In this document: positions 12,181 through 64,000 of the stretch, piece by piece
Position numbering within the stretch: position 1 is the stretch's first letter
How the letters are laid out: every line of letters begins with the position of its first letter
Assembly (NCBI GenBank): GCA_001972305.1
Contig: BDDD01000180.1
Span: 579,778-643,777 of the forward strand
DNA: 64,000 nt
Origin: Cephalotus follicularis
Lineage: Eukaryota > Streptophyta > Magnoliopsida > Oxalidales > Cephalotaceae
Direction of reading: 5' to 3'
The notes under the pieces: model-generated
What the model was told of the DNA's origin: nothing
The model's input: only the letters and a program-made list of their open reading frames with translations
Database searches by the model: none
Position numbers and translations under genes: made by a program

Positions 12181-12184
12181 NTAG

Positions 12185-32548: not shown

Positions 32549-32572
32549 GATTTTGGTAGCTTTTTGCCGCGT

Positions 32573-32590: not shown

Positions 32591-32592
32591 AC

Positions 32593-34163: not shown

Positions 34164-34348
34164 AAGAGTAATGATTTTCGTCTCAAATGTTTATTCCGAG
34201 TTTGCGTTCCGAATGATGTGGCACTTGTTAATAAATGACACATAGATGATAATGTATACATGTTATAATATATGACGTGCATTAATAAATGCTATGTCAT
34301 TTGGGACAAAAATTCATGATAGAAATTAGAATGAATAACATTACTCTT
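34164..34348. mobile_element. Small MITE, 185 bp
   Basis: Terminal inverted repeats AAGAGTAATG and CATTACTCTT are perfect. Inner arms pair partly (TCTCAAATG with CATTTGGGA). No coding capacity. The target duplication is not clear. Confidence 0.65.
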
Positions 34349-36119: not shown

Positions 36120-36263
36120 TGGTACCAGCAGGCAAACAAACCTCTCTTAGGAGTTGTTGAGAAAGAGGAGAGAAAAAAGGAAACTGAGAGAGGTTTGATT
36201 CAATTGCCTAGGTAGCTAGTTTGGGCTTAATTTACTTGATTGAAGGAGCTAAGTCAGTCTTGG

Positions 36264-36274
36264 CTATATATAAA
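36264..36274 (-). promoter_or_regulatory. TATA box of the GASA gene
   Basis: The minus strand reads TTTTTATATATAGCC, about 145 bases before the GASA start codon. This would allow a 5' untranslated region of roughly 110 bases. Confidence 0.65.
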
Positions 36275-37110: not shown

Positions 37111-37300
37111 TAACGGTTGAAATTACAAAATATACATAATAGATTAAAAAATTTCAGATTTTTTTGGTATTCGGCACACTGTCACGTGTCGCTACATGTC
37201 ACCCAAGTTTACCTAGTAAGGCATGTAGTAACATGTGACGGTGTGTCGAACACTCAAAGAATCCAAATTTTTTTAATATATTTTGTAAATTCAACCGTTA
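37111..37300. mobile_element. Foldback MITE, 190 bp
   Basis: Perfect ends TAACGGTTGA and TCAACCGTTA. Long imperfect arms pair through ATTACAAAATATA, TTCAGATTTTTTTGGT and CACACTGTCACGTG. The loop is around 37205. Confidence 0.8.
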
Positions 37301-37696
37301 GATTTGATGTTCTTGATTTGTAGATCATGCATTTTAATTTTCAAGTTAATCAGACATCAATAACTACTTCCAATATGTAAATTAAATTCTAAATGTGAAA
37401 AAAATTGACATGTTAAAAATAAAAATAGAAAAACCCTGTCCAGCGCCAGAATGACACCATTTTGACATTGAACGCTTAAAAAAAAGAAACAACGTCATCC
37501 CACTTGACACCCGCACACAACAATACGTGCCAAGTGTTCGTAACACCAATAGCTCCTAAGTAAATACCATTATATATATATCCTTGTTATACTTATTACT
37601 GTAACATGAGTTTTAGAGGATCTCACGTATCTTAATTCAAAATCATAATAATAAAAAATATAATATATAAAATATAACAAATTTAGGTTTTCTTGT
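37301..37696. other. AT-rich flank of Tat-2
   Basis: No gene is seen. The last five bases (CTTGT) are the left target duplication of Tat-2. Confidence 0.5.
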
Positions 37697-38208
37697 TGTT
37701 GATACAAAAATCATTTCCTCAAAAGTCTCTTACGTGGAAAGATTTGATTTGTTGAAGGAAAAGCTATGAATGCTCCGAGAAAGTAGTGTGAATGGTGGTG
37801 CGACTGTATTCCCTACACAAATGAGCAAACATATCGTAGGTCCATGAGGGTTTACTCCCGGGGACACTCCGATGCTTAAGTTAGACAAGGCAATGAAGAA
37901 TGCAATTGCAATGTGCTTTTTTGTGTGTAAAAATGGCTTACCTCTGTAAAATCTTTTATTCTGGTATTTAGAGTGTTGGGTTGTAACTGCTGAGCATGAA
38001 CTTAGGAGCTGATTGTTGTTCCCTTAAGGAAATGCCAAGGATCTCGAGATTTCCCTGATTCTCCACCAGATTTGGCGCTTAGCCATTATTATCAGTTATC
38101 TTTCCTGATTCTGAGCACTCGGCCACGTGTTTGTAGCCCTGAAGGACACTTAGCCTATTTTATCGGGGACACATGGCATTGCTTATGGACTAAATTTTTC
38201 TCATATCA
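37697..38208 (-). repeat. 3' LTR of Tat-2
   Basis: 512 bp, matching the right LTR. The adjoining minus-strand polypurine tract is GGAGGAGCATA (38209-38219). Confidence 0.93.
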
Positions 38209-38728
38209 TATGCTCCTCCGGTCTTCTTTTTTCTGGGCTTGGCAGAGGAAGAGGACCATTTATGGCCTGGCCCGATTCTGAGCGGGGCTTTAGCAGGTGT
38301 TTAAATCGTGATCTGGTTATTGGGCCTGCACTGCTCTACCCACTTTGATATTAACTCCAAAGAGGTAGAGCAAACGCCCGTAACGTGCTAGTCTTTTCAT
38401 CTTCCGTGCGTTTCCTCTTTGTCTTTAGCGCCAGACTTGATGGGCTTAATCTCTACCATTAAATCTTTTCGAGATCCAATATTCCAGACCCCTCGCCCTT
38501 TAAAAGGCATTGCCTTCCTTGAGAAGTCTCTTCACACTCCTTTGAATCTCTAGAGCCCCTGAACCTTGCTATCTTCAAATTTGCAATCATCCTTTCTCTT
38601 AATCTTCTCAAAGAAAATCCGGTGAGGCTCTTCTCTAGTTTTCATTTGTTTTTGAGAAAATGTCCGGTCTTCCTTAGGAATTTCCTTTCAACCTGCTCAT
38701 ATTCTCTCTCACTCTCCAGAAACTTCAA

Positions 38729-41086
38729 ATGTCCAGAACCAAACAAACTTCCAAACAGGTCGATGACTCGGTCGTGGCGAGTCGCCTGACTGAGGACGTG
38801 ACCGTAGCCGAGCGTCCCTTAGACGCTGTGGTGGAGATGGAGGCTACTGCCGTGGGTGCTCCCGTAGCTAGCTCTACAAGAGCGGGGACCCAAGGATTTA
38901 GGGTCGATTTTGATAAGAGCGTACTCAACCGAGAGAAGGTGAAGGGCCTGACAGCGAAGTATTGCCTTCAGAGAAGTCTAATCTATGGCATTCCCAACGA
39001 TCCAAGAGAAGTGACCGAGAGCAGACCTAGACTTTTTCCAGTGTTCCAGGACGCTCTTGAGCATGGTCTGAGGATCCCGCTCCCACGCTTCGCAGTAGAG
39101 GTCTTGGAGAATTTCAAGATCCACACCTCACTATTCCAGTCGCAATCCTGGGCCTTCATCATAGGATTTTTGGTGAAGTGCTTGGAATCAGATGCGGTCA
39201 CCACCGTCAGACTTTTCAAAGAGTTCCATATTCTGGCAGTTTCTCCGGGCAAGCGAGGATATTACTTCAAGTCCCACCCAAGATTGACCAAGAAATTGCT
39301 GGTAGATCCCACCAAGTAGGTCAAGGGTTGAAGGGGAAGGTATTTTCTAAACCGAGACCTCCCAAATTTTACCCCTTGCTGGTGGTCGGACTCTCTGGAC
39401 GTACAACATTTCAACAAGAGGTCAAATATGACATTGGCTGAGAGGTCCGCCCTATCTATGCTCTCCGCTCTAGAGCCCGAAGGGGTAAACCACACCTTCT
39501 GGGAGGATCACCTTCAAAGGGTTGGGTTAAGTATGACACCCGGTCAGAGACATCACATGGACGAGGAGGACTAGGTCCCAATAGGGGTAGAGAGAGATAG
39601 AGATGGTGATGTTACGGATGAACCTGAGGCCCAACGCGCGGTCGAGGGAGAAAGATGTATAAAGCCTTCGTTTCCTCCATCTTGGACATTTATATTTCTT
39701 TTGTTCTTTTTCCATTTTGTGCTATGCTTTTGATCTTGTAATTTCTATGTCTATTTGCAGTGATGGCTCCTAGGCGTAGCTTCGATGACATCCTGAAGGT
39801 TAAGAAAGTGGGGAAGCCAGCTTCTGCTGAGGGATCGAAGCAGAAGAAGAAAACTGCTACCGAGGGAGCCAAACAAAAGGAAAAGGACGATCAGGCCTGG
39901 GGGAGCACTAACATTGCTGCTGCTAAGAAGAAGGACAAGCGGACTATGGACGGACGTTCCCCGAGCGCTATTCCTATCCCTATGAGCAAGAAAAGCAGGA
40001 AGGGAAAGGAGACCGAGGAAGTTGCTGCTCTTGGCGCAAGCCCTCAAAATCCCATTTTGTTGCCTTCTCCTCAGGACGTCAACAGTATGATCGAAGAGCT
40101 GGAGTCCGTGGGGAATGCAAGTTTAAGCCTGAACACCAAGGGTTTCCTTTGCGCTCAGTTCTTTGTGTTTCTTCCCTGACGAGATTAAAACGAGGAGGAA
40201 TTGGACCAATGAGAAGTTGATCCAAAATTCCCTTCAGAGCCACTTTAGGGTAAGTGATTTCTTCTATCTTCTTTCCAACATGTCTTTCACTTTTCCCTTA
40301 ACTCATGCACTTCTCTGGCAGGCTCTGAATGACACTCACCTACTGGCGGAGAACTTCTTGGTCATACTCGAGAGGTATGACAAAGTGAGGGAAGAGGCAG
40401 CGAAACTTGAGGAGACCTCTCGCTCGGCCAAGGCTCACCTGGAGGAAGTTCTCAGGGTCCAGGAGTCTCTTGCTGAGGAGAAGAATAAGGCCCTCAAGGA
40501 GTGGGATCGGATGCAGAAGGACCTCTCCAACGTCGGCAAGTTATACCGCGGGGTGGAAGATAAGTTTGAGAGCTATCGCAAAAGAAACGAAGAGCGGTTG
40601 GCGAAGGCAGTGAAAAAAGCTCTAACGGAGTTCAAGTCCTCGGATGAATTCCACTGTTTGGTGGAAGCCTCCGTGGAGGACTACAATTCTTCGGAGGCTT
40701 TCGGTGATGAAGTTTTTAAGGAATCCATCGAATACTTCCTTCAAGGTTTCTACACTTGTCGAAATTGGTTCTCATCTCTACACCCCGAGGTTCCTTTGGG
40801 CGACGTCGTCTACTGTTCAGCTGCCAAGTCCTTCGAATTCTATCCTGAGGTCTATGAGGCAGAGGAAGAAAGAGTTGGGCTTGCTTTGGAAGAAGAGGCT
40901 CATCAAGAAGATGAGGCACAAGGAGATGAGTCTCCGGAGGTGACTATCCTCCCCTCGAATCCTGCCATAGATTCTACTTCTTTGGCTCCTCCTCCAATGT
41001 CCGATACTCCTCGGCCTCCAACCTCGGAACCCTTCAATGCTCCTCTTCCCAAGGATGATCAAGAAGCTCCTCCTCCAGGGGCTTAG
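38729..41086 (+). pseudogene. Tat-2 antisense gene (PF04195-like), intron-containing
   Basis: Homologue of the Tat-1 plus-strand gene. It starts MSRTKQTSK at 38729, with no earlier in-frame ATG in that frame. The conserved domain has VTESRPRLFPVFQDALEHG, LRIPLPRFAVEVLENFKIH and SQSWAFIIGFLVKCLES. Stops at 39317, shortly after, and near 39573 interrupt exon 1. Introns 39656-39760 and 40250-40321 have GT...AG ends. Exon 2 starts MAPRRSFDDILKVKK and is very basic, nuclear-signal-like (KKKDKR, KKSRKGKE). Exon 3 (from 40322) is a coiled coil (LEETSRSAKAHLEEVLRVQE), then FKSSDEFHCLVE repeats and a C-terminal Pro-rich acidic tail (PLPKDDQEAPPPGA). The protein has no known enzymatic motif. Confidence 0.78.
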
Positions 41087-44900: not shown

Positions 44901-47680
44901 TGACACGCCCGGACCCAGCCCAGATGGAATCCGTCGCTCCCAAGACGAGACCAAGCCTCCCATCAGAGAATTACCTCGTAAGTTCAGCAGATCAGAGTTT
45001 TATAAATACATTTTTAAGCATATAATTTCTTCAAAACAGAAAAGTTTCTTGAAAAACTTGAAAATAATTCTAACTCTTAAATTTTACAAAAATCAGGCAT
45101 GTAGTATCCGTTTATCAGACTATGCCCCCTGTAAATAAAAAGACAGTTTATAAAATTCACACTCCCGAAGGAGGAAATCAGCAATTTATAAATGGGCCCA
45201 ACCCTCAGTAGACCATAATTTAAAGGAGAAAATAAGTATGGGTTGGGTTCCACCTCAACCATATTATCAAAACATAAATCAAAAATAGGGCTCAGCCCTT
45301 CTATACGAAACCAAAATATTTATATAAAACATAAATAATGTAGAATTTAAAATGTTGATGTAGTGATGGTATGCATATGTTGACTCTGGTAGGCATGCCC
45401 TTGTGGTCTCACCTCAGCAGACTGACTGACTTCAGCTGACAGAGCTCAACAGACTAACCTGTCAGAACTAAAAACAAAAACAGAGGAGGGGTTAATCCAT
45501 AGGACTGGTGAGAGGGAACAAAAGACTCAGCGGAGTTTTACTCGCATATAAAAATGTCTTTCCAGAAAAGATATAAAAGTATAAAACAACTGAAACAGAA
45601 TAAAAATCCAAAATCTGATTTATAAAACAGATTTAAAACAACTTAAACAGAATATAAATCCAAAACCGATTTATAAAACAGAAATTTTCAGAATCAACAG
45701 AAAGTCAGATCATTTCCTTAAAACAAATTAATATCCTCAGAAACTCAGATATAATATAGTATTTAAAAGAGTTTAAACAGAATAAATATATAAAGATACA
45801 ATGGGTCTACTAGGTAAGGTTGACGTCTGGGCCCCGTCGGGCCGAACGTCCAGCAGAAATAGTGGCAATGACACCGTCGTGTCAAAGTATCAATAGAAAG
45901 TCATACACGTGTAGACAAAGCCTTTCATGGGTATCAGATATGTAACTAATACAATACCGAGATTACCATGCATCTAAACATATTTAATAGATTTCAGAAT
46001 ACAGAATCTCCAATTCCTCAAAACAGACTTTAAACAGATTTAAACAGATACAGAATTCATCAAAGCCATCAAAATAGATTTAAACAGATACAGAAATCAC
46101 TTTCTTATCAAATACAGATATAGCTGAAAATAGCGTCATGCTATGACTATCATCATGCGAGCATTTGAAAACATTAAAAGAAAGTTTCAGACATTATAAC
46201 TTAAACAGATTTTCAGAAATAGAGTAAATCCAAATTCATTCAGATGCGAAAATAAATAAGTTAAAACGTTCATACATTCAAACCATTTAAAAGAACTTTA
46301 GAATAAAAAGGTTAAAGAAAGGCGTTCCACTCACAGAACAGATGAGCAAGTCCCTCGACTGGTCGCCTCCATGGCCAACCTCAAAGGCAGGATCCTCTGC
46401 CAACAGATAAACAAACAGATAGACATATACATATCAGACCAGACTCGACAATCAAACAGAACTCAAACACGTACTAAGACGCGAAATGCTTTATGCAATG
46501 AGATGCGTGCAGATGTCAGAAAACTATAACCAATCAAAATGGTCAACAGCAGTAGAAGTTTGATTATTAAAACATCATTTAAACCTTCAATTTAAACACA
46601 CTTTCGAAATCATTTAAAACTAGTCCAAGTGGTTGTCTAGATTATCCAATTCAAATCGATTACACAATTCAAGTTCTTATTTCCACAGAAACCGATATAG
46701 AAATACAGAATTCAACAAAAAACAGAACTAACGGAACATAGTTCAAAGTTTACCAAAAACAGACGGAACGCAGCAGGAATCTCGGAGCCGAACCGGAATG
46801 GATCACGCCTACGTGGAAAACGGAGTCAGAATGCTGTCAGAAATGGGCCGCCGGAGGGTGCCGGGGCGTGGGCCCATGCACCGCCGCTAACCGGAGCTTG
46901 TCAACCACGCGTGGGCCCATGCAAGGTCGGATCTTGAGCGTCGGAGGATGAGGATCACGGATCTGAGGCGCGTTGGTCACGGCGCCGCCGCGTCTGGCAG
47001 GAACGGGCATGTTGACCGTGGCTGCCTTCACCGTCGATCTGTGCTGTCGGCGTAATCACAGGTTGAGTCTGGTCGCGTTCGACTACCCGTGATGCCAGAA
47101 TGCCGAATCTGGGCTTGCCTTACCGTGACGGTCACCAGAGACGGCGGATCTACGCAAAACAGATGTGGAGAGAAAAGAGCTCGTGGCGTGAGCACGACGC
47201 GGTTGCAGACGCCGCGGTGGGGTACGGCGTGCTCGGGAGGTGACGGTGATCACGCCGGTGTCTTCGCCGACATAGTCTCGGCAGTGACACCGGTGGCAGA
47301 AAGAAAAGAGAGAGAGAGAGAACAGGAGAGAGAGAAATCCAAAAATGAGCCAAAAAAATGGCATCTCCCTATAAATATACCCAACCATAATGGACTGGGT
47401 TTATGTCCAAAAAAAAACCGATACGAACAGAATTTGGATGTTTAGGACATACCACTTGGCTTATTTTAAAAAAACAACAGTCATTTCAGTAAAACATCAT
47501 TTAATTTACAGTAAATAAAATTCATAAAAAAAGCAGAAAAATCATCAGAATAAATCATAAAAATTTATTAATGCCGTGATGCAAAAAAAATGAAAGCTAG
47601 AAAAATAGACTAACAGCTAGACAGACAAACAAAAGCCACGTAGGCTCACAGACACAGACTACTAGGACACGGATGTCACA
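44901..47680. mobile_element. Solo-LTR-like element B, 2.78 kb, with perfect 5-bp target duplication
   Basis: It begins TGACACGCCCGGACCC and ends GGACACGGATGTCACA. TCACT flanks it at 44896-44900 and 47681-47685. No primer-binding site, polypurine tract or retroviral protein is found, so the structure fits a solo LTR. The body is A-rich with many AAACAGA-type words. A GC-rich part at 46780-47330 yields only overlapping low-complexity frames. It belongs to the family of elements A and C. Confidence 0.85.
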
Positions 47681-47698
47681 TCACTTGTCAACCTCTCG

Positions 47699-48201
47699 TG
47701 ATAAAAAAAACATATATGATATAGACCACGGTTCTCCAGGTGTGGAGGTTTGATTTGTTAAGAAAAGCGTAGAATGCTCCGAAGATTGTACTGGATCTGG
47801 GTTTTCTGGTCTTTCAAAAAAACAAAAAGCGAACTATCAAAGGTCCAGGAGGTTTTCCTCCCGGGGACACTCCAAAAAAAAATTCAATAGTAGGTAAAGA
47901 AGATAATAAGTATATATGGTGAATTGATCGAAAAAAAAAAAGTCTTTCTTGGGAGCATTTATAGCTTACCTGCCGTAACTGCTAATATCAAAAAAATGAT
48001 TACGAGTCCCTAGGATAAGGTTGAAATTTTAGGCCATAAGAGTCCTAAAAAAAAGTCTTCACTTGGAAGGCCCAGCCATATCCTTATCTTGGAGTAGAGA
48101 AGTTAAAAAAAACACGATTCTGTCCGGTTTCATTGTGGGAACTCTTAGCTCCATGTGACACATAAAAAAACCATATTTTATGTAGGAATTTTTCCGTATC
48201 A
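47699..48201 (-). repeat. 3' LTR of Tat-3
   Basis: Aligned to 51814-52232. It retains a CCCGGGGACACTCC block, missing from the right copy but present in the Tat-1 and Tat-2 LTRs. The right copy has an internal deletion near 51960. Confidence 0.75.
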
Positions 48202-48204
48202 GTG

Positions 48205-48650
48205 GCCACCCTGCACCTTCTAAAAAAAACTCTGCAGAGGAGGGGGAGCATTTATGAGGTGGTCTTACTTGAGCAGGTCAAAAAAACTTGATTGGGATTG
48301 TTTTGGCTTATGTGGTTGCGGTAGACTTCAAGGCTTCAAAAAAATTTCAGGGAACAATAGATGAAGTCGTAGACCAATATAAGGCTTCTCCGGATAAAAA
48401 AAAGGAAGTCTTTATGGAGTCTGCCCTATATTTTCGTCAGGGCTTCTATAGTTAAAAAAATTTGGTGTCTGCTCTTCATCTTGAGGTTTCTCTGACTATC
48501 CGAGGGAAAGAAAAAAAAAGAGGGCAGAGCTTCCAAATTTGACTGTTCCGTCCTCTGCTGATGATGTCGAAAAAAATCCTTTGAGCCTTCTTTAGAGACC
48601 GTTGCTGCTCCTCAGTTCGAAGATGTTAAAAAAACTGCTTAGCTTATGTT
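48205..48650 (+). pseudogene. Tat-3 antisense gene, C-terminal remnant
   Basis: It aligns with the FKAS-repeat part of the Tat-1/Tat-2 plus-strand genes: VDFKAS, then DEVVDQYKASPD, KEVFMESALYFRQGFYS and VSALHLEVSL. The N-terminal half, including the RTKQT start and PF04195-like domain, is deleted. Six overlay runs add false lysines. Confidence 0.75.
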
Positions 48651-48875
48651 TTTCTATTTGCGTGGTACCTTTGTATTCCTGTAATAAAAAAACTGGCAAT
48701 GCAATAACTTTTTTTTTTGTTTCATTTAGTCTGGTTTCTCCAAAAAAAAACTATTTGAACTCCTCAATTCCCTTAGGAAAATTTGTATGAGAACTCCCAA
48801 CAAAAAAAGTACTGGCCTAATATTTTTTAGACCAGTCGCCTAAGCTTTAACCCCCATGAAAAAAAATGTGTGCAA

Positions 48876-49330
48876 GCGCTCAGCCAACGAGACTTGATCT
48901 TTGCGAGTTTTTAAATGAAAAAAAATCAAGATATGTTTTAGGTCTAGTCTGACAAGTTCTTATGGGTTTGCAGACAAAAAAATTGTATTGGTCAGATATT
49001 TTTTTAGACGAGGTCATCTGAACTATTTACCTCAAAAAAAGGCACTTGTATCAAAGCGCTCAGTCCAACAAACTTGATCTTTGCGAGTTATAAAAAAATC
49101 ATAGATCAAGATACGATTTAGGTCTGGTCTGACAAGTTCTTATGGGTTTAAAAAAAATGATTTCGTACTGGTCAGATAGTTTTTAGACCAGGTCGTCTGA
49201 GCTTTTTAAAAAAAGTAGGGGCACTTGTATCAAAGCGCTCAGTTCAACAAACTTGATCTTTGTGAAAAAAAACATGTTCACATATCAAGATACGATTTAG
49301 GTCTGGTATGACAAGTTCTTATGAAAAAAA
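48876..49330. repeat. ~180-bp tandem repeat, about 2.5-3 copies, in Tat-3
   Basis: The word GCGCTCAG starts at 48876, 49056 and 49235 (spacing 180 and 179). Each is followed by AACTTGATCTTTG, then TGACAAGTTCTTATGGGTTT. It is the same unit as in Tat-1 and Tat-2, in higher copy number. The spacing is not a multiple of 58, so the repeat is independent of the overlay. Confidence 0.85.
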
Positions 49331-49556
49331 AGACTAGGATTTGCTCCCTTGGGAGTCTTCTCTGATTGCTCCCATGAGAGTAAAAAAAGATTGCTCCATT
49401 GGGAGTCTTCTCCGATTGCTCCCGTGGGAGTCTTCTCTGAAAAAAACCGTGGGAGTCTTCTCTGATTGCTCCCGTGGGAGTCTTCTCCAATTGCTCTAAA
49501 AAAAGTCTTCTCTGATTGCTCCCGTGGGAATCTTATCTGATATGTAGGTCTTTAAA
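49330..49556. repeat. 25-bp hairpin tandem repeats of Tat-3
   Basis: About eight copies of a unit with GATTGCTCCCGTGGGAGTCT. The CTCCC(GT)GGGAG core can form a hairpin. It stands at the same place as the palindromic arrays of Tat-1 and Tat-2. Confidence 0.85.
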
Positions 49557-50199
49557 AAAAAAACTTTTTGGAAGATTTCGTATTGAAAAACAATTGTTTT
49601 AGAGAAGGGTTCAAAAAAAATGTACAACCTTAAAGTTTTACTAAGACCTGATGCTAAACATCGAGCTTTGGAAAAAAAACCTCTACCTCTGATATCTGCC
49701 TTCAAGTGCCAAGATTTGCCTTCAAGTACAAAAAAATGCGTTCAAGTACTAAGGTCTGCCTACGAGTACTGAGGTCTGCCTTCAAGCAAAAAAATCTGCC
49801 TTCACGTACTTGCTCTGGCCAAAGCAGACTTGGAGAGCTACTCGGAAAAAAATTTTGAATAAGCCTATATAAGGATTTATCCTCCATAATGTTGAGCCTG
49901 TATAAAAAAATGGAAAGCTCTAATCCTATTGCAAGGATCTGTTTTGACGGAACTTTTTGAAAAAAAAACAAAGATTTAATGACGTGAACATTGGACCTTC
50001 AGTCCCTTGCAAACTTGAAAAAAAAACTTGTGTTAAAGAAACATCATCTTTCTTAAATAGAATGAACATTTGGACACAAAAAAAATAGTACTTCGCTTCT
50101 GCAGACCAGACAAATATATCTCTATTATTTTTTAGAAAAAAAATCAGTTCCTCTTTCTCCACCTCTCTCAGCTGAGAACCATTCTTAGTCAATAAAAAA

Positions 50200-51790
50200 A
50201 ACCTCTAGGTTGTTGCTCATCTCCCTGCCGTGGAGCTTCTTCTCTGTGCTCAAAAAAAACATAATTTCTCAGATGACCTTGCGGATCAAGTCTTCTGTAT
50301 GATTTTTTAAAAAAAAACACTCTTCCGTATTATGCCAATGGTCATGATGGTATCGGCAATACTTGCTAAAAAAACCTTGTTTGCTGGGGATCTTAGAGGA
50401 GCTGGCCACTGGATTGGAACTTTATAAAAAAATATTGCAAGGATCATGGTCTGTGTCTCTAGGAGAGGGGCGAAAGTATTATAAAAAAAAATCGATGATC
50501 CCCTTTTTGGTGATCCTTCCCTCTTGGAGAGTTTGTGCCTCAAAAAAACTTTCAACAGCTCTGGCCCCTCTTTCCTCTTCTAGTTCTTTTCTTGATCACA
50601 AAAAAATCGCTCTTCTTTCTCCTGATAATCAGACTAGGAGGTCTTATGCTTTCTATTAAAAAAAGCCTCCTCTGCATTTACGTACTTTTCAGCTCTTCTA
50701 AGGAGGTCTGTCATAAAAAAAATTGGCTTCTTCATCAGGGAGAAAGTGAAAGTTGAGTTGTCCCTTAACCCACAAAAAAAGGCTGCCAAGGCAAAGGAAG
50801 GTTCCAGGTCTTTTACCATCAGTGATTCCTTAAAAAAACGAGTAAGGTAGTATATGAGGGATTCATTTTTTCCTTATACCACGTTGATCAAAAAAATAGA
50901 GTTCTTTCTCTGGGTGGTGCAGTTAAGGAATTTGGTGACAAACATCTAAAAAAATTGTTTGAAGTTTACCACTGACTTGGGGGGCAACATGGCGTACCAC
51001 GTCTGAAAAAAACCTGTGAAGGTTGTCGGAAGTCCTCAGCAAAGGTTTGCATCTGAAGCTTGAAAAAAAAGCATGATCTGAGTGTAGTACCTCACATGCT
51101 GTATTGAGTTAGAGGACCCATAAAAAAATCTGAGCGTTGGGAGTTTGAACCCTCTCGGTATAGGCTCCCTCAGTATCTTAAAAAAAAAGGGAGTGCAGTT
51201 TAGATTGCGCACCTCTAACAAGTAACCCTTCGTCTGCAAAAAAACTCTGAGCCTTTTCTCCATCTCTAAAAACTTCATATTCATGGTCTACTCTAAAAAA
51301 AATTGGTCCCTAGACTTGCAAGAGACATACGATCACCCTCCGGTTGGTCTGACAAAAAAATCGCTCGTGATACAGTCCTATGAGTCGCGTAGGAACGTAC
51401 ACGAAGCTCCTAAAAAAATGCGGAGTAGTATGAGTAGTCTTCCTCTATTGAATCTTGCTCTGATAAGTCAAAAAAAGGATCATAATTATAATTCCTTGTG
51501 CTGGAGGACTATGCTCTCAGAGATGTAAAAAAAACTGACCACCTTGGAGGGCACCTGGCCCCCCTTGACGGGTTTTGGCTGGCCTAAAAAAATTGTGATT
51601 GTTCTGGGGCTGGATGGCTTGGTCCAGCCTGATTCTGGCTGACAAAAAAATTTGCCAGCAGCGTAGTGCGCCTCCCCATCTCTTGGAGGAGCTGGTTAAA
51701 TAAAAAAATGGTAAGAGGAGCTTGACCGAGAGTGGCCGAAGGGTTGGTTCTCTTCAAAGAAAAAAATGAATTAATTGAAGCAAATCACGT
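50200..51790 (-). pseudogene. Tat-3 gag
   Basis: Interrupted frames at 50307-50555, 50634-50819 and 51036-51284 encode HKLSKREGSPKRG, VKDLEPSFALAAF and PRGFKLPTLRF followed by GSSNSIQHVRYYTQIML, matching Tat-1 gag in order. Many apparent FF or KK pairs are overlay runs, not gene sequence. A short linker remnant (REVEKEEL, about 50130-50180) precedes it after the pol deletion. Confidence 0.85.
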
Positions 51791-51813
51791 CGTTTTCCAC
51801 AGACGACGCCAAT

Positions 51814-52232
51814 TGTTAAAAAAAAAATCAACGTCACAATAATCCTCCACGTGTGGAGGTTTGATTTGTTGGAAAAAACGTAGGATGCTCCGAAGATTGT
51901 ATTGGATATGGGTTTTTTGGTATTCCCTGCACACAAAAAGTGAACTATCAAAGGTCCAAGAAGCTAATAAGTGTATATGGTGAATTGGCCGACTCCCCCC
52001 CCCCTAAAGTCTTTCTTATGGGTATTTACAGCTTACCTGCCGTAACTGTTAATGTCATGGAGATGATTACGAGTCCCTAATATAAGACTAAAATTTTAGG
52101 CCATAAGAGTCCTAAAAAGGAATCTTCACTTGGAATCTCTCCCACAGATTCTGGACGGTTATATTAAAAAAACTTTTGGTTCTAGGTGACACGTGTCAGT
52201 GCCTTATTTTATGTAGGAATTTTAAAAAAACA
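51814..52232 (-). repeat. 5' LTR of Tat-3
   Basis: It starts TGTT beside a primer-binding-like GACGACGCCAAT. Five consecutive overlay slots (51876-52108) are empty here, giving a clean copy to compare with the left LTR. An 11-base C run lies at 51994-52004. Confidence 0.75.
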
Positions 52233-52238
52233 ACATTA

Positions 52239-52334
52239 AACCACGATGAAGCATCCTTAAGCATTATTGTTGAAAGAGAAGAAAAAAACCACAATGAAGC
52301 ATCCTTAAGCATTATTGTTGAAAGAGAAGATTTC
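52239..52334. repeat. 48-bp tandem duplication
   Basis: Two near-identical units contain CCAC(G/A)ATGAAGCATCCTTA and GCATTATTGTTGAAAGAGAA at 52241 and 52289. No gene is identified. Confidence 0.85.
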
Positions 52335-53948
52335 ATGGTAAAAAAAACCGGTGATAACGACCCATCTCTAAGAACAATCTCTAAGAACAACTTATTTAAA
52401 AAAACTCATATCAACTTCTACTGAGACACCATTCCTTTGAGCTCTATTCCTTGAGCTTCCTTTAGATTCTATATTGTCAACAAATACTAGTTTTCGTTTG
52501 AAAACAACCCATTAAAAAAAATTTTCAATGAACGGAGTGCACTCTAAATACCAACATATGTGGAAGCAAGCAAAAAAATTCGATGCAATCATGAGTTCAA
52601 GGAATCCAACGTAATAAGTTAGTGAGCTAAAAAAAAAGCAAACCGGTATCTATCATAAAATCTTTTCTTTTAATGTGGTTTAATGTAAAAAAAAAAATAA
52701 GTGAGTTAAATTTTCTTTTTAAAAAAACTGCTCAGCGGTTTTGTTAAAAAAATTTTTTAAAAGATATTGTTATTAATTTTTTTTTTTAGAAAACCATTGT
52801 AATGGTTTCATTTTTGTTAAATTATGCAGTTTCAAAGTGGTTCTGCACGTCCAGAGTGGTAAAAAAAAAGAAAAAAAACTCAAAAATAAGCCTCATTCAG
52901 CACCATGTAAAATTTTTCTAAAAAAATTTTTTTCCCTTTCCTTTCTGTTCAACATGGACGAAGTTAGAATTTTTTCCAAAAAAAGACAAAAATTAAGCTT
53001 CACACAATTTTTAAACGAATTAATAATGTTGCATCAAAAAAATGATTGCCTTTTGTGTTTTGATATTAGAGAGAATGAAAGATGAAGAACATGAAAAAAA
53101 AAGAGAAAGGGAAAATAAGAGTTTTGTTGTTGAATTCTACTTTCTATTAAGAAAAAAAATAATATAGAGTATATTATTATTAATTTTTTTCACGTTACAG
53201 TTACCGATTAAAAAAACAAAGGCAAACCAAGCACCAATTCTACGGGGGCAATTGTCACAATACAATTAAAAAAACTTTCACTATACAATTGTACCATGAA
53301 AAAAAAAAGATAGACCATAATAAAAAAAAAAATTACGTATACTCAGTGCAATACACTTAATCAATACTATTTAATCATATAAAAAAAAAAAATAAAATTT
53401 ATCTATAGAATAGAAGATAAAATAATTAATTAATACTTATAAAAAAAATGCACTAATGAATTTTTTTCATAACAGAGGCAAGAGTGATGAAACTCTATAC
53501 ATATTTATTACCCAATTTTAACAGGGTAATTGCCCCTCTTACCACTATGGTGGCTTCGCCTATGTCCTCAAGTAATATATAGGAGCATCAGTTTACGTAA
53601 CTGCATACCCAATGGAAAAAAACCTTTTGTTGAGATTTTATAAATCCCAGTCACATTTACCGGCTTGGTTGCTAAAAAAATACGTGATTACATAATAAAC
53701 TTTATTAAACTCTACTTTCCAACTCGTGTAGAAAAAAATGCATATGGATATTAAGAGGTAATTTGCTGTAACTACACTTCGATTTGGTTAAAAAAATTGA
53801 ATACTGTTCTTGTTGTTGAAAGCCGAAAAAGGACCCCAAAACTCACTAAAAAAATGTCATATAGTAATGTAAAATAATATGAAATGATGTTACTCTATAG
53901 TCTAAAAAAAAAACAAGCATTAAGCAAAATAGTTACTTAGATAGGAAG
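52335..53948. other. AT-rich DNA without gene
   Basis: No domain is seen. Overlay runs are frequent and short frames here are lysine- or phenylalanine-rich artefacts. Confidence 0.5.
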
Positions 53949-54860
53949 ATGGCAGACCAGAAGAAAAAAAAGTTGCATGGGATGTGGGGAAGCCCAATCA
54001 CAAAGTGGAAATTGCCCTAAAAAAAAAAGGCATACTCTATGAGTACATTGAAGAAGATGTATCAAACAAAAGCCAGTTAAAAAAAAAATACAATCCCATT
54101 CACAAGAAAGTCCCATTACTTGTCCATGATGGAAAACAAAAAAAAGAGTCACTAGTAATCTTCGAGTATCTTGACCAAGCATGGACTGAAGCTCCAAAAA
54201 AACAGCCTCAACATCCTAACCAAAGAGCCAAAGCTCGTATTTGGGCAAGTTTTAAAAAAACAAGAGGTAATTAATATTACAAATTTCTCATCCTGGAAGA
54301 CATCTTATATGAAAAAAAAATATGTTACTAATATGAATGTTGACAACCTGACATATGTAACTCCCTTATAAAAAAATTGGTTCTTGAAGGACTCATTATT
54401 GTCACATTAAAATATTCTATTACTACCAAAAAAATTTGTTGGGTAGTTCAATCTCCGTGGTTTTAATATTTAGTGAGATTCACCAAAAAAAACTAAATAA
54501 AATCATGGATGAAATACTAGATTTTTCTCTTATTTTTTAAGAAAAAAAAACCTTTGAGTGGAGGTAGAATAGTTTGAATGCCAAAACAAACTCATATATC
54601 CAAAAAAAAAACTGGGTGCTTCCGAGATTTTTCTTTTACTTATTTGGCCAAATCATGAAAAAAAAATCATTATTGATTTGTATTATTGAAGGTGTTTGAG
54701 AATGCCGTACGGATAATAAAAAAAGATGGGGAAGTGCAAGAGAAGTGGATCAAGGAGATGAATGAAAAAAATGAAAAAAAAAGAACAGAACATGGAAGAT
54801 ATCTTTCAAAAGGGAATTCCTTCCTTTGATGGTAAAAAAATGGGTTTCTTTGACAAAATA
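53949..54860 (+). pseudogene. Tau-class glutathione S-transferase relic
   Basis: Tau GSTs conjugate glutathione to electrophiles in the cytosol. Exon 1 (53949-about 54268) starts MADQ and then LHGMWGSP. After a frame shift near 53990 it continues HKVEIAL, GILYEYIEEDVSNKSQL, YNPIHKKVPLLVHDGK, then ESLVIFEYLDQAW and ARIWASF: the thioredoxin-like domain with the ESL glutathione-binding motif. An intron (GT at about 54266, AG before 54691) leads to exon 2 (VFENAVR, DGEVQEKWIKEMNE, a second frame shift, EDIFQKGIPSFDG, MGFFD). The C-terminal helical domain stops about 90 residues early. The frame shifts are not explained by the length-preserving overlay, so I call it a pseudogene. KK pairs at 54022, 54080 and 54138 are overlay. 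Confidence 0.85.
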
Positions 54861-55790
54861 ATTATTGTATACTTAAGTATTTAACTAATATAAAAAAATA
54901 TAAGTCTAATAAGTGAAGACATAAGAGTTTGGCTTATTTGGACTAGAGTAAAAAAAAAGGTAAAACCTTAGTATAAATATAAGTGTGTTAGCTAGAGACA
55001 ACACTGCAAAAAAATCCAAACTTGATACGAAATGTGTATTCCTTTAAGCTATATATACTTATCACAAAAAAAATATCAAAAACCTTAACAATCTTAAAGC
55101 AATAATTTGGTTTATTTATCTGAAAAAAAAAGGTTATCGATGATAGGTGGATGTTTCGTTTTGCGTGCAATTTGGTTGTTCAAAAAAAGGAGCAGTTTGA
55201 TAATTATTCACGTCAGGAGCAAAACGGTCAAAAAGGTAAAAAAAAATTCCGGTCACCGTTTGAGGCAAACAAGGTACTGATCTTGTGGGTCTCGATAAAA
55301 AAAATCTGCTAGTGGTGTTGGATTTCCGATCCGGTGTTAGAATCATCTAGAACGGAAAAAAAAAGCGTCGGTGATCCAAAACTTTTGAACAGCTGTTCCG
55401 GCCGCCGGAGTTGAAAAAAAAGGCTCAGGCCGGTCGAGTTCAGTTCGTCGATCCACGGTGGTTCTTTTGCAAAAAAAACGGCGTCGAACCGTTGCCAGAC
55501 AGAGGAGTTTGGTGGTGTAGCCGTCGCGGAAAAAAAAACTTTTGCAGCCACCGGTGGCGTCGGTTCAGGTAGAGGAGTGACGCGGTCAAAAAAAGGAGGT
55601 TTGTCGGTCCGTTTGCGAGGTTGACTCCTGGAGGTCCATCGGCGCAAAAAAACCACGCGCACAGCAGTGAAAGTGAGGCTATTTTTTTCAGACTTTGAGG
55701 CTCAAAAAAATTGCTGTTTCTTCTGAAAATTCAAGTGCACTCGTTCTAATTATTATTTTATAAAAAAATTTACTGAAATGGATAAATATA
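54861..55790. other. Uncertain region, probably 5' part of a copia element
   Basis: 54861-55140 is AT-rich. 55140-55690 is GC-richer with Arg/Pro/Ser-type frames on both strands but no domain. Its position directly before a copia gag suggests an LTR or leader; this is inference. Confidence 0.35.
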
Positions 55791-56640
55791 GTCCCTTTGA
55801 GATGGTTAAACTATAATCGAAAAAAAGGTCAGAATACAACGCTTGGAGGAGTAAGACTCAATTCGAGTTGAAATCCCAAAAAAAATTCTATACTGTTTTG
55901 AGCAATTTGTCTGACACCACTGAAGATGTTTCTGAAAAAAAATGGTTAAGTGATGAGGACTGCTGTAGAGACTACTTGTTGAATTGTTTATCAAAAAAAA
56001 TAGTAGAAACCCATAGTAAGTTTAAGACTGCTAAAGAAATCTGGGACAACTAAAAAAATCAATTTCGAAAAGAGGAGGAGCTATATAAACCTCACATGGT
56101 GGATAAGTTAAAAAAATTCAAGTTCCGTGACAACATGTAAATCACACCTCAAGTTACTGATCTCGAGAAAAAAAGGACTAAGATGAACAATGAGAATATT
56201 GGTGTGACTGATATTTTCCTGGTTGAAAAAAAATTCAATAAGCTACATGCTGCATGGCATTTCTTCAAAACTGAAATGTATAGAAAAAAAGAACATGTGG
56301 GACTAGATGAGCTCAAACGATACATCTGTATCGAAGATGAGAAAAAAACTTGGAATAACTTGGAGTTAGTTAAGCAGCAATAGTCCCATACCAATGTTGA
56401 AAAAAAGTCCAAGAAATTTCCTAAGCATATCAAGTCACCTAAGAGTGAACCCCCGAAAAAAAAAGCCAAGAAAACTATCGATAAAAAGAAAAAGAAAACT
56501 AAGTGCTACAACTGTAAAAAAAGGGGTCACTGGAAAGCAGACTGTATCCTACCTAAGAAGCCTAGTGCTGACAAAAAAAAGAAGGAAGCTCAGATGCTAG
56601 TGGACAAGCCTGAGCCTCACAACTTTATTGCAAAAAAAAC
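55790..56640 (+). pseudogene. Ty1/copia gag relic with zinc knuckle (copia-2)
   Basis: Pieces in order: YNAWRSKTQFELKS, VLSNLSDTTEDVSE, FKTAKEIWDN, then DELKRYICIEDE and a lysine-rich stretch. CYNCKKRGHWKADC at about 56506-56547 is a CCHC zinc knuckle (C-x2-C-x4-H-x4-C). The stop after EIWDN at 56052 is made by an overlay run. Stops near 56138 and 56381 are not at overlay slots and look genuine. Protease and pol do not follow. Confidence 0.82.
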
Positions 56641-58171
56641 GGTGTTAGAAGCCCGGGAAGGGTCCCGGTCGATTTTGGGTCTAGGATGCAAAAAAATATA
56701 ATTTAAAATTTTCAAAACACCAAGATTCGCAAGTCTAGGTTCACACTAAAAAAATACTACCATAATCTAAAAGCCAATGATCACCGTTTAATGTTCAATT
56801 GAACTAAAAAAATCAAGCATACATCCACTATAATAAACCGAATATAATTCGATAACAATAAATAAAAAAAATTAGGAACCATACCGACGTTGGAGGCTCC
56901 ACCACTTTGCTGCTACGCGCTAAAAAAAGAAACTGCCGGTCACAGGAGCCAATGCCAGATCCAGGTCAACTCCCCTGAGAAAAAAACATGACATCATTGA
57001 ACTCCAAAAGCGCCGATCTACCCATTTCTGGCGGAGAAAAAAAAGGAAGCGCCCCAGAACGGCCAAGCACAGCTGGCAGTGGCGCAAATACATTGAAAAA
57101 AAACTTAGTGTGACCCGGTCAACTAGCCATCGACCGGCCGCACCAAAACAGGTAAAAAAACACCCGATCTTCATAAAGGTGGCTAAGAATCGCTGTGAAT
57201 CTCCATAGAACAAAAAAACACAGCGGTGGCGATTCGACCTAGCCCGACGAACACAGGTGCGGCCGCGAAAAAAAAACACCACAACCGACCTCCAAAACAA
57301 GTGATCTTCACATTGAAACCCAAGACCAAAAAAAACTCAGGACAGAACGGCAAGCCACGGCGCACAACACATCGACTCGAAAGAGAAAAAAAACAATTCA
57401 AAATCAAGCCAAAAACACACAGAAATCGCCTAATCTAATATCAAAAAAAATAGAGCCAAAGATTGGCTCCACCTACTGTGATAACCGGCGGCGGAAAGAG
57501 AAAAAAAAGGTGGGAGACGCAAACAGGCGTCGGTTCAAACCAGAGAGAAACGAAAGAGAAAAAAAAAGAGAAAGAGAAGAGGCGTAACGTGGATGAGAGC
57601 CCGCCTCTTTTCCCGGCAAAAAAAGCCAAGCGTGTCATCTTCTCAGACCGAAGCGCCCACCAGGAGAAAACGCACAAAAAAATGCATTTTCTCCCCTATT
57701 TTTGGCGCTACCCGACGCTATTTGGTGTGTCCAAAAAAAAAATTGACCAAGTCAATTATTTGGTCTCTTTCTCTTTTTGTTTTATTATAACAAAAAAATC
57801 TCTTTGTTTAATTATGTGCCATGCACATGGTATGTATCAACATACTCCCAAAAAAACTTCTCTTTAATATATCAATATGACAATACGATGGTAAAAAACA
57901 AACCACTAAAAAAAAATGAATATATACTAGTTAAAAACTAGATTTTTCACCAAGTTAGTATGTGTAAAAAAAGCGTCACTTTTCTAATAATCATGTGGGA
58001 CCCGAAAGCCCGGTTGGATTCCGAAAAAAAGACAAATTTTTTCAGAACATCCCAGAGTTCTGGTACGACCACCCTAATAGTAAAAAAATATTAGAATGAC
58101 CCCGGTATGACTTCCAATCATCCCTCGGATCCGTGTAAAAAAAAAATATCATCCGTTAACCGGTTAACTAG
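56641..58171. other. LTR-like or element-derived block without recognised gene
   Basis: It begins TGTTAGAAGCCCGGGAAGG after the gag relic. A GC-rich part (56880-57670) has overlapping frames on both strands with no domain, followed by AT-rich DNA. Its style (AT-rich start, GC-rich third quarter) recalls solo-LTR-like elements A and B, but I found no shared words. Every slot here is filled by the overlay. Confidence 0.35.
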
Positions 58172-58199
58172 CACTACAAGAAAAACTAGCAACCGCGAA

Positions 58200-58340
58200 A
58201 AAAAGGAGAGGGAAAGTAGTCCCCTCGCCGTTGAGCATTTTTTTAATTTTTTTTTAAAAAAAGCATGGCGAGGGCACTATTGCCCTCACCATTTTAAAAT
58301 GCATGGCGAGGGCAATAAATGCCCTCGCCGTGTGTAACAC
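58200..58340. repeat. CACTA-2 left subterminal repeats
   Basis: Alternating GGCGAGGGCA and TGCCCTC(G/A)CC words, same type as CACTA-1. Confidence 0.75.
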
Positions 58341-58561
58341 TCGGCCTTTTTTTTTCTTCTCTCTTTTTTTTCCTCTCCCTCTCCCTCACCGCTGCTAGCG
58401 TAGGAACTCGCTTTCTTCCTCTCTCTCACTGTCGGTCTCCTTCTCTTCATTTCTTCTCCTCCAGCCAACATCAAAGCTTGGATTTCAAAAAAAAATTTCT
58501 AGATCCAACCTCCATATATATATATATATAATTTTGTTATTGTGTAAAAAAACTGTATGTT

Positions 58562-59010
58562 ATATATTAGGCTGATTGTCCAATGAATCATAAATCTACA
58601 AATGAGTTTTGTATATTTCTTGGCAAGAATCCAATTTCATAGTGTGCTAAAAAGTAATCAAATGTGGTTAGATCTTCAACTTAAGTTGAAGACCATTGCC
58701 TCATTACAACAATTGCAGAAAAAAAATGGATTTTCTCACTTCATCGTGAGCTTTACTGTCTAATTCCATCTACACCAAAAAAAAGGTGTGACAATGTGTT
58801 TGAAATAAAGGTTACAATCAATCCAGGTTATCATGAAAAAAAAAAACACATTGAGATTAATAATCATTATGTTCGTGAGTTAGTTAAACAAAAAAAAAAA
58901 CAGATTATTTTTATTTCGTCTAAGGACCAAATGACTAACATCTTTACTAAAAAAAAAAGTTTCAACCGTTTCAAATTTCTTCAAGATATTATGCCTCAAC
59001 CGTCTAGCTA
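58562..59010 (+). pseudogene. copia RNase H C-terminal fragment
   Basis: Codons give FLGKNPISW, CDN, NPGYHE, KHIEINNHYVRELV, then FISSKDQMTNIFTK and SFNRFKFLQDIM, the usual end of copia pol. There is no RT upstream or LTR downstream, so it is an isolated fragment inside CACTA-2. Overlay runs sit at the catalytic-site flanks. Confidence 0.8.
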
Positions 59011-60640
59011 AAAAAACGCTGATAACATGGACAATTTAAATTCAAATTGTGCCTTCAATATAGGATAAAAAAAACTCCAATATTTTCATGTTTTTCAATC
59101 TCCTACTTTATAGGATTGCATTATTAAAAAAACAAAGTCATTGTAATCATACATAATGTAACTATTATTATATACTAACAGTGAAAAAAATACAAAAAAT
59201 TCTAGAATTTTCATTTGTTATTAACTGCTTTAATAACAAAAAAAAAAAGAGAACTTGTGGGAGTTACCAATAGAATAATGGTTAGTTCAAGTAAGAAAAA
59301 AAAAAATTATCGAGTGAGCAAAATTTCAAGTCAAAACTATATATGGCGGAGTATATAAAAAAAGAACATTACAACTGTGTAAGTTTATATGTTGCACTAC
59401 GGGTCTATTAAAATAAAAAAAACGCACTGAAAGCGTGCAATCAAAGACTTGTGGCACCAACACAGTAGCCTTAAAAAAAAACTATGGGAATGGGACAGTA
59501 AATATTGTTGCTGTTATTTTATCATGTTTTAAAAAAATTTATATTTGCACATTACATATTAGATTCCACCACCAATAATTTGTGTTCTAAAAAAATTGAG
59601 GCTGGCAACTGGAGTTTCAATAAAGACCTTATGGAGGGTTGAATTAAAAAAAAAATTAAAAACTCATAATATGTTAGCTATTATATCTCTATTGCTATTA
59701 GTTTAAAAAAACTTACAGTCACCTATTTTGTGCTAGCATTCTTCTACTAATGATAGAGTAGCAAAAAAAGTTCATTATGTGTGTGACTTTAAAGCTTTGA
59801 ACAAATACATTAAATACGATAAAAAAAGTCAAGACGACATGGATATTGATAGCATAGATTAAACTGTAAGTTAATAGTAAAAAAAATGTAGTAAATATTG
59901 TTTGCAATAGTATTCTTAATATTCTAATTTGGCATGAAAAAAAAATTTGATAATATATAGTAGGACAACTGTATGTTGTTTGTATCATTTTTAAAAAAAA
60001 AGAGTTTTAGCAGATATGACGCGTAGGGTCTCGCGTTCCTCTATTCCTGGAGAAAAAAACACACCATCCGGATCTACACGTCCCTAGTCGGACTCCATGG
60101 AGTTAGACACAAAAAAACAGGATACCGATGTTCACAGTGCTAGTAAGAAAATTTGTTATCTCACGATAAAAAAAATTAAACTGTTTTTCGTATTGTCAAA
60201 GCTTTTTTGTTATATTTTGTTATACAAAAAAAAAGTCAAACGTAACCATGTTTTTTAATCAGGCTCCCACCAGCAATGGACGAGAAAAAAAAGTAGGGGG
60301 GCGGACTTGCCCCCCAGGGGGTGAAGGATTCTAGGCCTATTCAAAAAAACAGTGCCAATGGGTAAGTAACTAGTAATTTAAGTACATTTTTTTTAAAACT
60401 AAAAAAACATGTCGGTGATAATATTTGTTTAATTGCATGTGTTTTGAGGAGATGGACGTGAAGAACACCATAGCGTCCATCATCAGGGGCATAATACTGT
60501 AACCATGGACCACGTGGAGCCAGTGGCCCGATTCAGAGAAGGAACTACTGTGGGAGAAGCTATTGGTGAGTAAAAAAAAAATAGTTAACAATCAATATTA
60601 TTCATGATATTTTTATTTTCGTTGTTTGACATAAAAAAAT
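59011..60640. other. CACTA-2 interior, no clear gene
   Basis: AT-rich. The stretch 60010-60150 (TATGACGCGTAGGGTCTCGC onward) and 60280-60330 could be 5' exons of the transposase, but no motif is certain. Confidence 0.4.
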
Positions 60641-61680
60641 TGTAGGACTACTACCACTTTCTGCCATCTGATGCACACAACAGGCTTGCAAAAAAAAGTT
60701 ACGTACAAGAGAATTACCCAAAGTGGATGCGTAACTATAGAAAGAAGGAAAAAAAGAGTGCTGGTGTGCGTTATATGAGCCCTGAGTGTAGGCAGCATGG
60801 CCCTACAAAAAAACCACAACCAGTGTGGGATGAAATGGTGAACATGTGGATGTTCGAGGATTTTAAAAAAAGGGTAAGAACAAATACCTCCAATAGGGCG
60901 AACAAAGCACACACCACCTACAAAAAAAATAGTTACACGATGGAAAGACAACTGCAGATTGGGGTAAGTAATAAACTTAAAAAAAAATTATGGTGATTAA
61001 TAAACTTAATTTGTGTTTAAAACTAATTTGAAATACCAAAAAAAATGCAGGAAGCCAAGGGGAAATGATTGGGGATGTATACTACGACACCCATCGAAAA
61101 AAAAGGAATGATACTCTTCCACCTCGTATTATAATGGAGAGGATGGTGAGTCACAAAAAAAAATGAGTATGTTAATTACCCTTTATATGTCAATCACTTA
61201 ACTGATTAATCTAAAAAAATTTTATAGGAGAAGTACCGGGCTGCTGTCGGGTCAGATACTATGGAGGGGCAAAAAAATACTAGTAGGCTGGCCCCCTTTG
61301 ACATCTTGGCATGGACAAAGGAGACAGGAAAAAAACGGAAGGGCAAGATCCTTGGATTGGGGAACAACATGACTTCCTCGAAGATGAAAAAAAAAGCACT
61401 TAGAGGTACTCAATCAGGAGTGGGAGGTCAGAGTCAACCATTCAAAAAAAAACCATCAGAGGCTGGCCCAGGGAAGGACGCAGGTGTTCACGAGTAGGCC
61501 TCAAAAAAACACCAGCAGGTGTCCCAGGTGCAGACAACGTTAAAGAGTTTTATGGCTCAAAAAAAAAAGATGATGGGCACTCAGACGGGATCTCGGTCCA
61601 GACGCAGACCATCTGATCAAAAAAAATCGCAGAGCCGGCACCCCGCTCCCAGCCATCCCCAGACTCGGACCATAGCAAAA
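60640..61680 (+). pseudogene. Ptta/En/Spm plant transposase (PF03004-like), 3' exons
   Basis: This family is encoded by CACTA elements. Exon a (to about 60961) has DYYHFLPSDAHNRL, ENYPKWMRNYRKKEKKSAGV, YMSPECRQHGPT, VWDEMVNMWMFEDF and NRANKAHTTY, ending before GTAAGT. Exon b (61050-61145) has GEMIGDVYYDTHR and NDTLPPR, ending before GTGAGT. Exon c (61230-61497) has EKYRAAVGSDTMEG, RLAPFDILAWTKETG and KGKILGLGNNM. A glutamine-rich tail (QQVSQVQTTLKSFMAQ) follows. Exon ends are clean, so before the overlay the gene may have been largely intact; roughly one codon pair in nineteen is overwritten. Confidence 0.83.
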
Positions 61681-61899
61681 AAAAGTCGTAGTTTGTTGAG
61701 TTTGACACATTTTAAGACTGTTTGTAAACGTATTACACTTTTTATAAATATGCTATAAAGCTCTTTTACATTGTTTTGTTAGTTTAATGTGAATGAAATG
61801 TGTCGTTTGGTAGTTATGGATGGAGTTCATTAGACAATTATAAAATATAAACTGTTATTATGGCTACTGCTGAAATGAATTACAGGTTTTGCTTTGATA

Positions 61900-62276
61900 T
61901 AGGGAATGGATTCTGCTGATAATTCCATAGGCAGAATCTACAAAATTGTGAGGGCATAGCGAGGGCGAGCCCTTGCATTGCCCCTCGCTGTGTCCTCTCA
62001 ATTCTGTAGAAAATTAAAATGGTGAGGGTAGATGCATGAACGAGTGGTAGACGGTGAGGGGGTGCCTGCCCTAGCTATACCCTCGCTATGGCAAGGGAAA
62101 TCTACGGCGAGGGGGCGTGCTCTCGTTGTACCCTCACTAACCCCTAGACAAGATGATGGCGAGGAAGTAAACGGTGAGGGTTTTTTCCGCTCTCCATAAA
62201 AAAAACGTTGAGTCAACGGTGAGGGGATGACGAGGGGAAGTGCCCTCGCCGTTGACAAAAAAATTTTAACGTAGTA
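61900..62276. repeat. CACTA-2 right subterminal repeats and end
   Basis: Repeated GGTGAGGG, GCGAGGG and CCCTCGC words in both orientations, ending near GTAGTA at 62276. Eight overlay slots up to 62142 are empty, so this is the original sequence. Confidence 0.75.
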
Positions 62277-63571
62277 CTTTATCCAGTCATCGCCATATGT
62301 GTCATGTATCCTATAAAAAAATTAGCTCTGACCGTGACCTAGGGTTCGGAATAATGTCACCCCTAGGTAAAGAAAAAAAAACTATAAATTCATGTACGCA
62401 TTGAGACTGTTGGCAGACCTCTCCGAAAATCCCATTTCCAATCTGCCTATACCTGATCAGAATTTTTAAGTCTCAACAGACATAAATAATATAGAGCTGA
62501 TCACCCTTCATACGAGTATGACGATTCCTTATTGCGCACTCGCCCATACATCTCAATGAAGCTCTCACAAGGCCCAAAGACAACCCTTTTGCCAGCATGT
62601 GGCTAGTGCTGGGGAAGGCAGAAATCAAAACCAATCGGTTACAACACAACGCATGCCAGCTGCTCAGGTCTAACGATACAACGCAATCCACGAATGGTCT
62701 ACTAATCACCATAGACTATACACTACTGAGACTATAGGAATCCTATCGAGATAGGTATGACTTTCCAAATAGGTTTCCAAAAAAAGGTCAGTTCAGTCTC
62801 ATGCTCTCTAGCACGAACCCTGCATCAGCTTTAAGGTAAACCCAAATGGTAATGAGATGGTCCATCCCCCATAAACAAAAGGGCAAGCATAATACGGCAA
62901 GTCTTTACGGTTCATCAATTTTCCTGAGAAAGTAAACTTATGACTTAGAACATTCGTTAGAAGGGAGTAAGGATCTCATTCTCATAACCTCCTAGGCATG
63001 AGATCCAACCCTTTTACGACAAAGCACTATATGTGTACTCAGTCAACATTAATCAACTGATCCATTTAATATGGGTTGGGATATACATATAGCGGGTTGC
63101 CATTGTTGATTGAATATGCACTATAAAACACGAAAAGGAATTTAGATTGTATAAATAGAGAGTGTAATATACACACATGCAACAGCCTCGCGCTTAAAGA
63201 GATATCTCCAGACGAGGATCGTATGTCATATATATATATACCAAAAAAAGGAACGGAAGCAAGTGAAGATAAGTAACAGATAAAATGATAAAATAACGTA
63301 AAAAAAAAAAGGTAGGAGAGATGAGTAATAATAATGACTAGAATTAAATTTATTGAATAAAAAAATTTAATACTGAAAAAGTTAAATGGAAAAGAATCCA
63401 CACTTAACCGACGGTAAAAAAAACTGGTAGGGGGATCTTCTCAATACTAGAAGTAAATAACGTAAAACGTTTAAAAAAAAACTCTGTCAGGCGGATAAAC
63501 CGACCATGTTGAGGGATCTTAAACAAAATTGAAAAAAAAAAATGCTTGATGAAAATTAACTTTCTCCACAC
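62277..63571. other. Unassigned DNA between CACTA-2 and element C
   Basis: No domain is recognised. The less AT-rich stretch 62320-63060 looks like untranslated or LTR sequence of a retroelement. The rest is AT-rich with a short TA tract near 63230. Confidence 0.4.
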
Positions 63572-64000
63572 TGACACGCCCGGACCCAACAAAAAAAAAA
63601 TCTGTCGCGCCCGCTACGAGGCCAAGTGTCACACCCCGTAATTCGGTGAAAAAAAATTGACGAGCATATATGGTAGTATCAGTATTAAACATACATTCCA
63701 GCATAAAAAAAAACAGTATAAAACAGTATGCGGAAAAATAGTTAATAAGCCAGAATGTATAAAATAAAAAAATTCGCACGCATCCCATACTACGTGCGGT
63801 ACAAGTTAACAATATCCTTAGCAAAAAAAATACAACAGTAAACAAGGTGTGATTCATTCGTTCATTACAGTACAATTCATTAAAAAAATAACCACCTTAA
63901 AACTATAAACAGAAGCTTTCAGAAGCTTCGGCAGCAAGCAAAAAAAGTCCTCGCTCAATCTGTAATGGTAGGGGTTAGCCGTTGTCCTCACTTGGCTAAG
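63572..64000. mobile_element. Solo-LTR-like element C, left part
   Basis: It starts TGACACGCCCGGACCCA exactly as element B, then diverges. A second LTR-like start TGTCACACCCCGTAATTCGG lies at about 63627 and resembles element A. The element runs out of the window. Confidence 0.65.

Follow-up and report, generated by a model that had tools for sequence, protein, structure and literature searches.

A 58-base lattice of A7 runs in the 3' tail of a Cephalotus follicularis contig is almost certainly an assembly artefact

Introduction

What could place a run of seven adenines (A7) at every 58th position across unrelated elements of a plant genome? The question is raised by a 64,000-nucleotide stretch (the window) from Cephalotus follicularis, which covers positions 579778-643777 of contig BDDD01000180.1 (C180) in assembly GCA_001972305.1 (1,577,397,061 bases in 9746 contigs). 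Base 643777 is the last base of C180, so that the window is the final 64 kb of the contig and the A7 lattice that it carries is a 3' contig tail. An earlier note, made from the letters of the window, read the lattice as an edit in assembly coordinates and not as biology. In our judgement it is almost certainly an artefact rather than a biological feature, because a second contig, C1980, holds nearly the same DNA with ordinary letters at the compared places. The lattice has no importance for biology, and gene and repeat annotation in the last 16.6 kb of C180 should be distrusted. For data quality, three exact A7 runs at period 58 provide a one-line test that can be used on other assemblies, and C1980 provides a collinear stretch against which the damaged tail can be checked.

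Results

We listed all stretches of at least six A after window position 45000 and assigned them to slots at 47816+58n (positions are those of the window, and features lie on its forward strand, unless a contig is named). A7 falls exactly on 208 of the 279 slots; when a one-base step in phase is allowed, 242 are filled, which reproduces the count that the earlier note had made by eye. The start given there, 47816, is too late, since five filled slots precede it (47352, 47410, 47468, 47526 and 47584). They are the only A7 hits among 824 slots of the same phase upstream of 47816, and they set the lattice at 47352-63946, with 247 of 287 slots filled and about 10% of the terminal 16.6 kb overwritten (247 x 7 of 16,649 bases). 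The core of a filled slot is exactly seven A, and the positions flanking the 190 early filled slots at offset 0 have an A content of 0.22-0.34, the background composition. The spacers between these 190 slots are not alike, no spacer position having a base above 0.39, and a tandem repeat or satellite was therefore rejected. Scans over periods 20-300 gave no periodic A7 in the left 47.3 kb of the window (best fill 0.018) and no lattice of T7, C7 or G7 in the lattice region (best fill 0.053). The opening 6 kb of C180 contains five scattered runs of A7 or longer and two of T7 or longer. A lone N stands at window position 12181, where the sequence is otherwise free of ambiguous letters.

The grid is fixed apart from two one-base steps. 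Among the early slots, 190 of 207 are at offset 0; between 59357 and 63713, 53 of 76 are at offset -1, so that the grid comes one base early; and after 63766 all four slots are back at offset 0. The phase thus slips somewhere between 59190 and 59357 and is restored between 63713 and 63766, which corrects the claim that it is exact throughout. Damage confined to the window file was ruled out: the genome copy carries the lattice too, C180:625778-635777 and window 46001-56000 being identical over 10,000 bases (0 differences).

DNA searches show C1980 to be collinear, on the reverse strand, with most of the lattice at 84-93% identity. The matched window pieces are 47000-47728, 47725-50500, 50400-51965, 52124-53496, 53491-57385, 57000-62084 and 62079-63626; for 63627-64000 the searches listed no C1980 match. 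We read 3000 bases of C1980 (262001-265000) base by base and compared the remainder by coordinates and rounded identity. The read portion aligns with window 47725-50526 over 2802 bases without a gap. Inside filled slots we counted 256 mismatches and 73 matches, against 27 mismatches and 2446 matches outside them, and C1980 has ordinary 7-mers at all 47 compared filled slots (A at 73 of 329 positions). The ungapped alignment and the ordinary 7-mers together mean that seven bases were substituted with the spacing unchanged. The earlier note had drawn the same conclusion from two long terminal repeats (LTRs) of one element, and C1980 has both of the 7-mers that it predicted from the other LTR for 47816 and 47990. 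From 48502 to 50526 the two contigs are identical apart from filled slots. Overwriting alone would be expected to produce a mismatch of 9.4% (7/58 x 0.78), about what is seen in the pieces at 90-91% identity. Lattice-free paralogues within the window agree: their identity is 0.26-0.40 at slot offsets 0-6 versus 0.60-0.81 at offsets 7-57. In the alignments of distant paralogues some gaps adjoin the slots, amounting to 12 letters at offset 2 and to 16 at offset 57.

All 27 differences outside the slots fall in the first 777 bases of the compared stretch (47725-48501), with zero in the following 2025 bases. Such clustering in the sequence suggests that the contig may be a mosaic of two haplotypes. 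C1980 also has extra DNA relative to the window, about 1 kb at 47725, about 5.26 kb at 53494 and about 1.13 kb at 62080, of which the latter two are possibly insertion polymorphisms.

The lattice runs through coding and repeat sequence alike. In a Pfam scan of nine translated pieces, the stretch at 53945-54274 matched the N-terminal domain of glutathione S-transferase (GST_N, E 5.2e-12). The reading frame of this stretch is uninterrupted across six filled A7 slots, three of them within the GST_N match. Of the elements named in the earlier note, GST is confirmed, and two others have weak Pfam support. Copia-type gag remnants at 55817-56701 have a zinc knuckle (zf-CCHC) above the cut-off and Retrotran_gag_2 below it, and the CACTA-like transposase fragment at 60646-60996 has a match to the plant transposase family Transposase_24 below the cut-off (E 7.5e-05). 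Three of the nine pieces had no Pfam match, and 58685-59011 had only an implausible weak one. After 43940 there is no closed open frame of at least 150 amino acids with an ATG, GTG or TTG start. The grid passes through the GST, gag and transposase stretches and through LTR-like sequence, shifted only at the two one-base steps.

To look beyond this tail, we scanned the whole assembly (1.58 Gb) for three consecutive exact A7 runs with non-A on both sides at period 58, a pattern that largely repaired lattices and lattices of other periods or run lengths would escape. All 34 of its matches are on the forward strand, none on the reverse, and they are confined to two contigs (27 in C180 and 7 in C7392). 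In C7392 (42,820 bases) the lattice occupies contig positions 32503-42775, or 10.3 kb, with 55 of 178 slots filled. Both lattices reach the 3' end of their contig. Arithmetic on the match positions gives phases of 33 for C180 and 23 for C7392 modulo 58; as these phases and the distances to the contig ends differ, anchoring of the grid at either end of a contig was rejected. A collinear partner exists for C7392 as well: by alignment coordinates, C194 matches its positions 32027-38145 at 89% identity. Positions 38145-40000 mostly belong to a repeat family, of which the copy with the highest score is 91% identical. In C7392, 18 of 98 slots are filled in 32503-38145, 16 of 32 in 38146-40000 and 21 of 48 beyond.

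Unfilled slots of C180 are clustered, filled and unfilled slots forming 23 runs where 69.9 are expected (z -11.6). Three of them, at 47642-47764, lie at the C1980 alignment break with the 1 kb of extra DNA at 47725; five, at 51876-52114, lie at the break 51965/52124; two, at 53500-53564, adjoin the break at 53491-53497, where C1980 has its 5.26 kb of extra DNA; and eight, at 61736-62148, span the break at 62079-62084 with its extra 1.13 kb. All four internal breaks are thus at most 29 bases from an unfilled slot, a result equalled in only 2 of the 287 circular shifts, one of them being the identity. A further six and seven unfilled slots, with the filled slot 62779 between them, lie at 62432-63192, where C1980 is aligned throughout. 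Six filled slots at 63627-63946 have no listed C1980 match and are at odds with a coupling of the lattice to that contig's match.

Discussion

How the lattice arose is a less certain matter than its artefactual nature. We lean, somewhat tentatively, towards a software fault in which a fixed-stride overwrite took place before the last polishing and was later repaired at uniquely mapped sites. In at least two contigs, the 3' tail would have had seven bases in every 58 set to A ahead of the final consensus or polishing round. Polishing would then have removed A7 mainly where reads were placed uniquely on the damaged contig, for example at haplotype-specific junctions, and would also have produced the two phase steps, through a one-base deletion and a one-base insertion. 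At other sites, reads may have been drawn to C1980 or to other repeat copies, and on this proposal the damage therefore stayed. Such repair is probably the simplest account of the empty slots: the full tail would have been overwritten first and its bases restored where reads only fit C180. This order of steps, the repair itself and the reason for the choice of A are what we infer. A would be a natural default for software that encodes it as zero in a 2-bit scheme or picks it first when a vote is empty.

Several points weigh against this proposal. No program or record is known to name the overwrite step, and the proposal does not account for the values 58 and 7. The tolerance of 29 bases for the alignment breaks was chosen after seeing the data; at zero tolerance two of the four breaks touch an unfilled slot, and 16 of 287 shifts do equally well. 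If the point where the C1980 match ends (63626) is taken as a fifth break, four of five lie near unfilled slots (4 of 287 shifts). Repair at places where C180 differs from C1980 is also not seen everywhere: all 12 slots in 47816-48501 are filled despite the 27 differences in 47725-48501, and 21 of 23 slots are filled in 52124-53496, a piece only 84% identical to C1980. Conversely, 62432-63192 is largely empty though C1980 aligns across it.

A different origin of the same damage would be sequencing itself, with one faulty but accurate long read per tail carrying the A7 runs and serving uncorrected as the contig end, and the damage blocking a join of C180 to C1980. With 16.6 kb for C180 and 10.3 kb for C7392, the two lattices have plausible read lengths, and each extends to the contig end; an overlap at about 90% identity to C1980 would probably be rejected by an assembler. 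We nevertheless find a read of this kind unlikely, since read chemistry of random speed is not expected to keep a grid to one base over 16 kb, and since period, run length and strand are common to two tails. Deliberate marking or masking of a redundant tail is a distinctly improbable origin in our view; its purpose would have been to leave no word of at least 52 letters in common with the matching contig wherever the grid is complete. Much of each tail is indeed matched by a collinear partner (C1980 and C194), and unfilled slots occur near the internal C1980 breaks. However, slots are empty over the aligned 62432-63192 and filled in the unmatched 63627-63946, and the C1980 insertions do not reset the grid; we also know of no tool that masks contig tails in such a way. 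If the overwrite had been gated by the C1980 match, traces of a similar kind would be expected, yet these same two segments do not fit. That the lattice is real sequence, acquired in the genome as phased A-tracts or a tandem repeat, has a negligible chance of being right. Nothing but the regular spacing speaks for it, and against it stand the substitution without change of length across unrelated elements and a coding frame, the spacers without common sequence, and a collinear contig from which A7 is absent over the bases compared. Biological A-tract phasing and slippage were likewise rejected on the paralogue comparison, the exact core with background flanks and the C1980 comparison. The view of the earlier note, an edit in assembly coordinates, therefore survives: the grid follows contig coordinates except for two one-base steps, and it is absent from C1980 over the 2802 bases compared. 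Two details alter the picture given there, namely that the lattice is confined to 3' contig tails and that its empty stretches form clusters that tend to occur at breaks against the matching contig.

The fixed-stride overwrite that we prefer has partial parallels in known behaviour of assembly software. Default-base fill in 2-bit storage or empty-vote consensus, where an N or no-call is written as A, likewise turns unknown or lost bases into A on one strand with the spacing kept; it follows missing data, whereas the lattice follows a fixed 58-base stride. Uncollapsed allelic or overlapping contigs form collinear pairs with insertion differences, as do C180 and C1980 or C7392 and C194. Ordinary pairs of that kind differ by scattered variants and indels, whereas here one member bears the lattice (C1980 as read over 3000 bases). 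A literature search on 58-base spacing found, judged by titles and the start of abstracts, no work on an assembly artefact, and further literature searches yielded no match. It is conceivable, though we would not expect it, that some assembler or polishing program has an unreported bug of fixed stride that puts A7 at intervals of 58 bases into contig tails with a near-identical partner, and that other public assemblies produced by it hide damage of the same kind.

The assembly holds other A-rich oddities. When the pattern is loosened, triples of A7 at period 58 number 3517 on the forward strand versus 219 on the reverse strand genome-wide, which points to a preference for A over T on the strand as stored, although a few blocks may supply most of this count. 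Two abrupt mid-contig blocks were measured, one of 83.5% A (1868 of 2236 bases) at positions 7700-9935 of the piece C32:250001-260000 and one of 80.5% A (1224 of 1520 bases) at positions 4266-5785 of the piece C11:1300001-1310000, both with scattered single T, C and G among the A's. A link of the lattice to such A-dense blocks was considered, but neither of the two has a 58-base period, and we keep them as a separate oddity. Shorter A-rich blocks of similar look occur in C40 (about 49578-50212), C16 (about 472400-472690) and C4 (piece positions 1420-1690).

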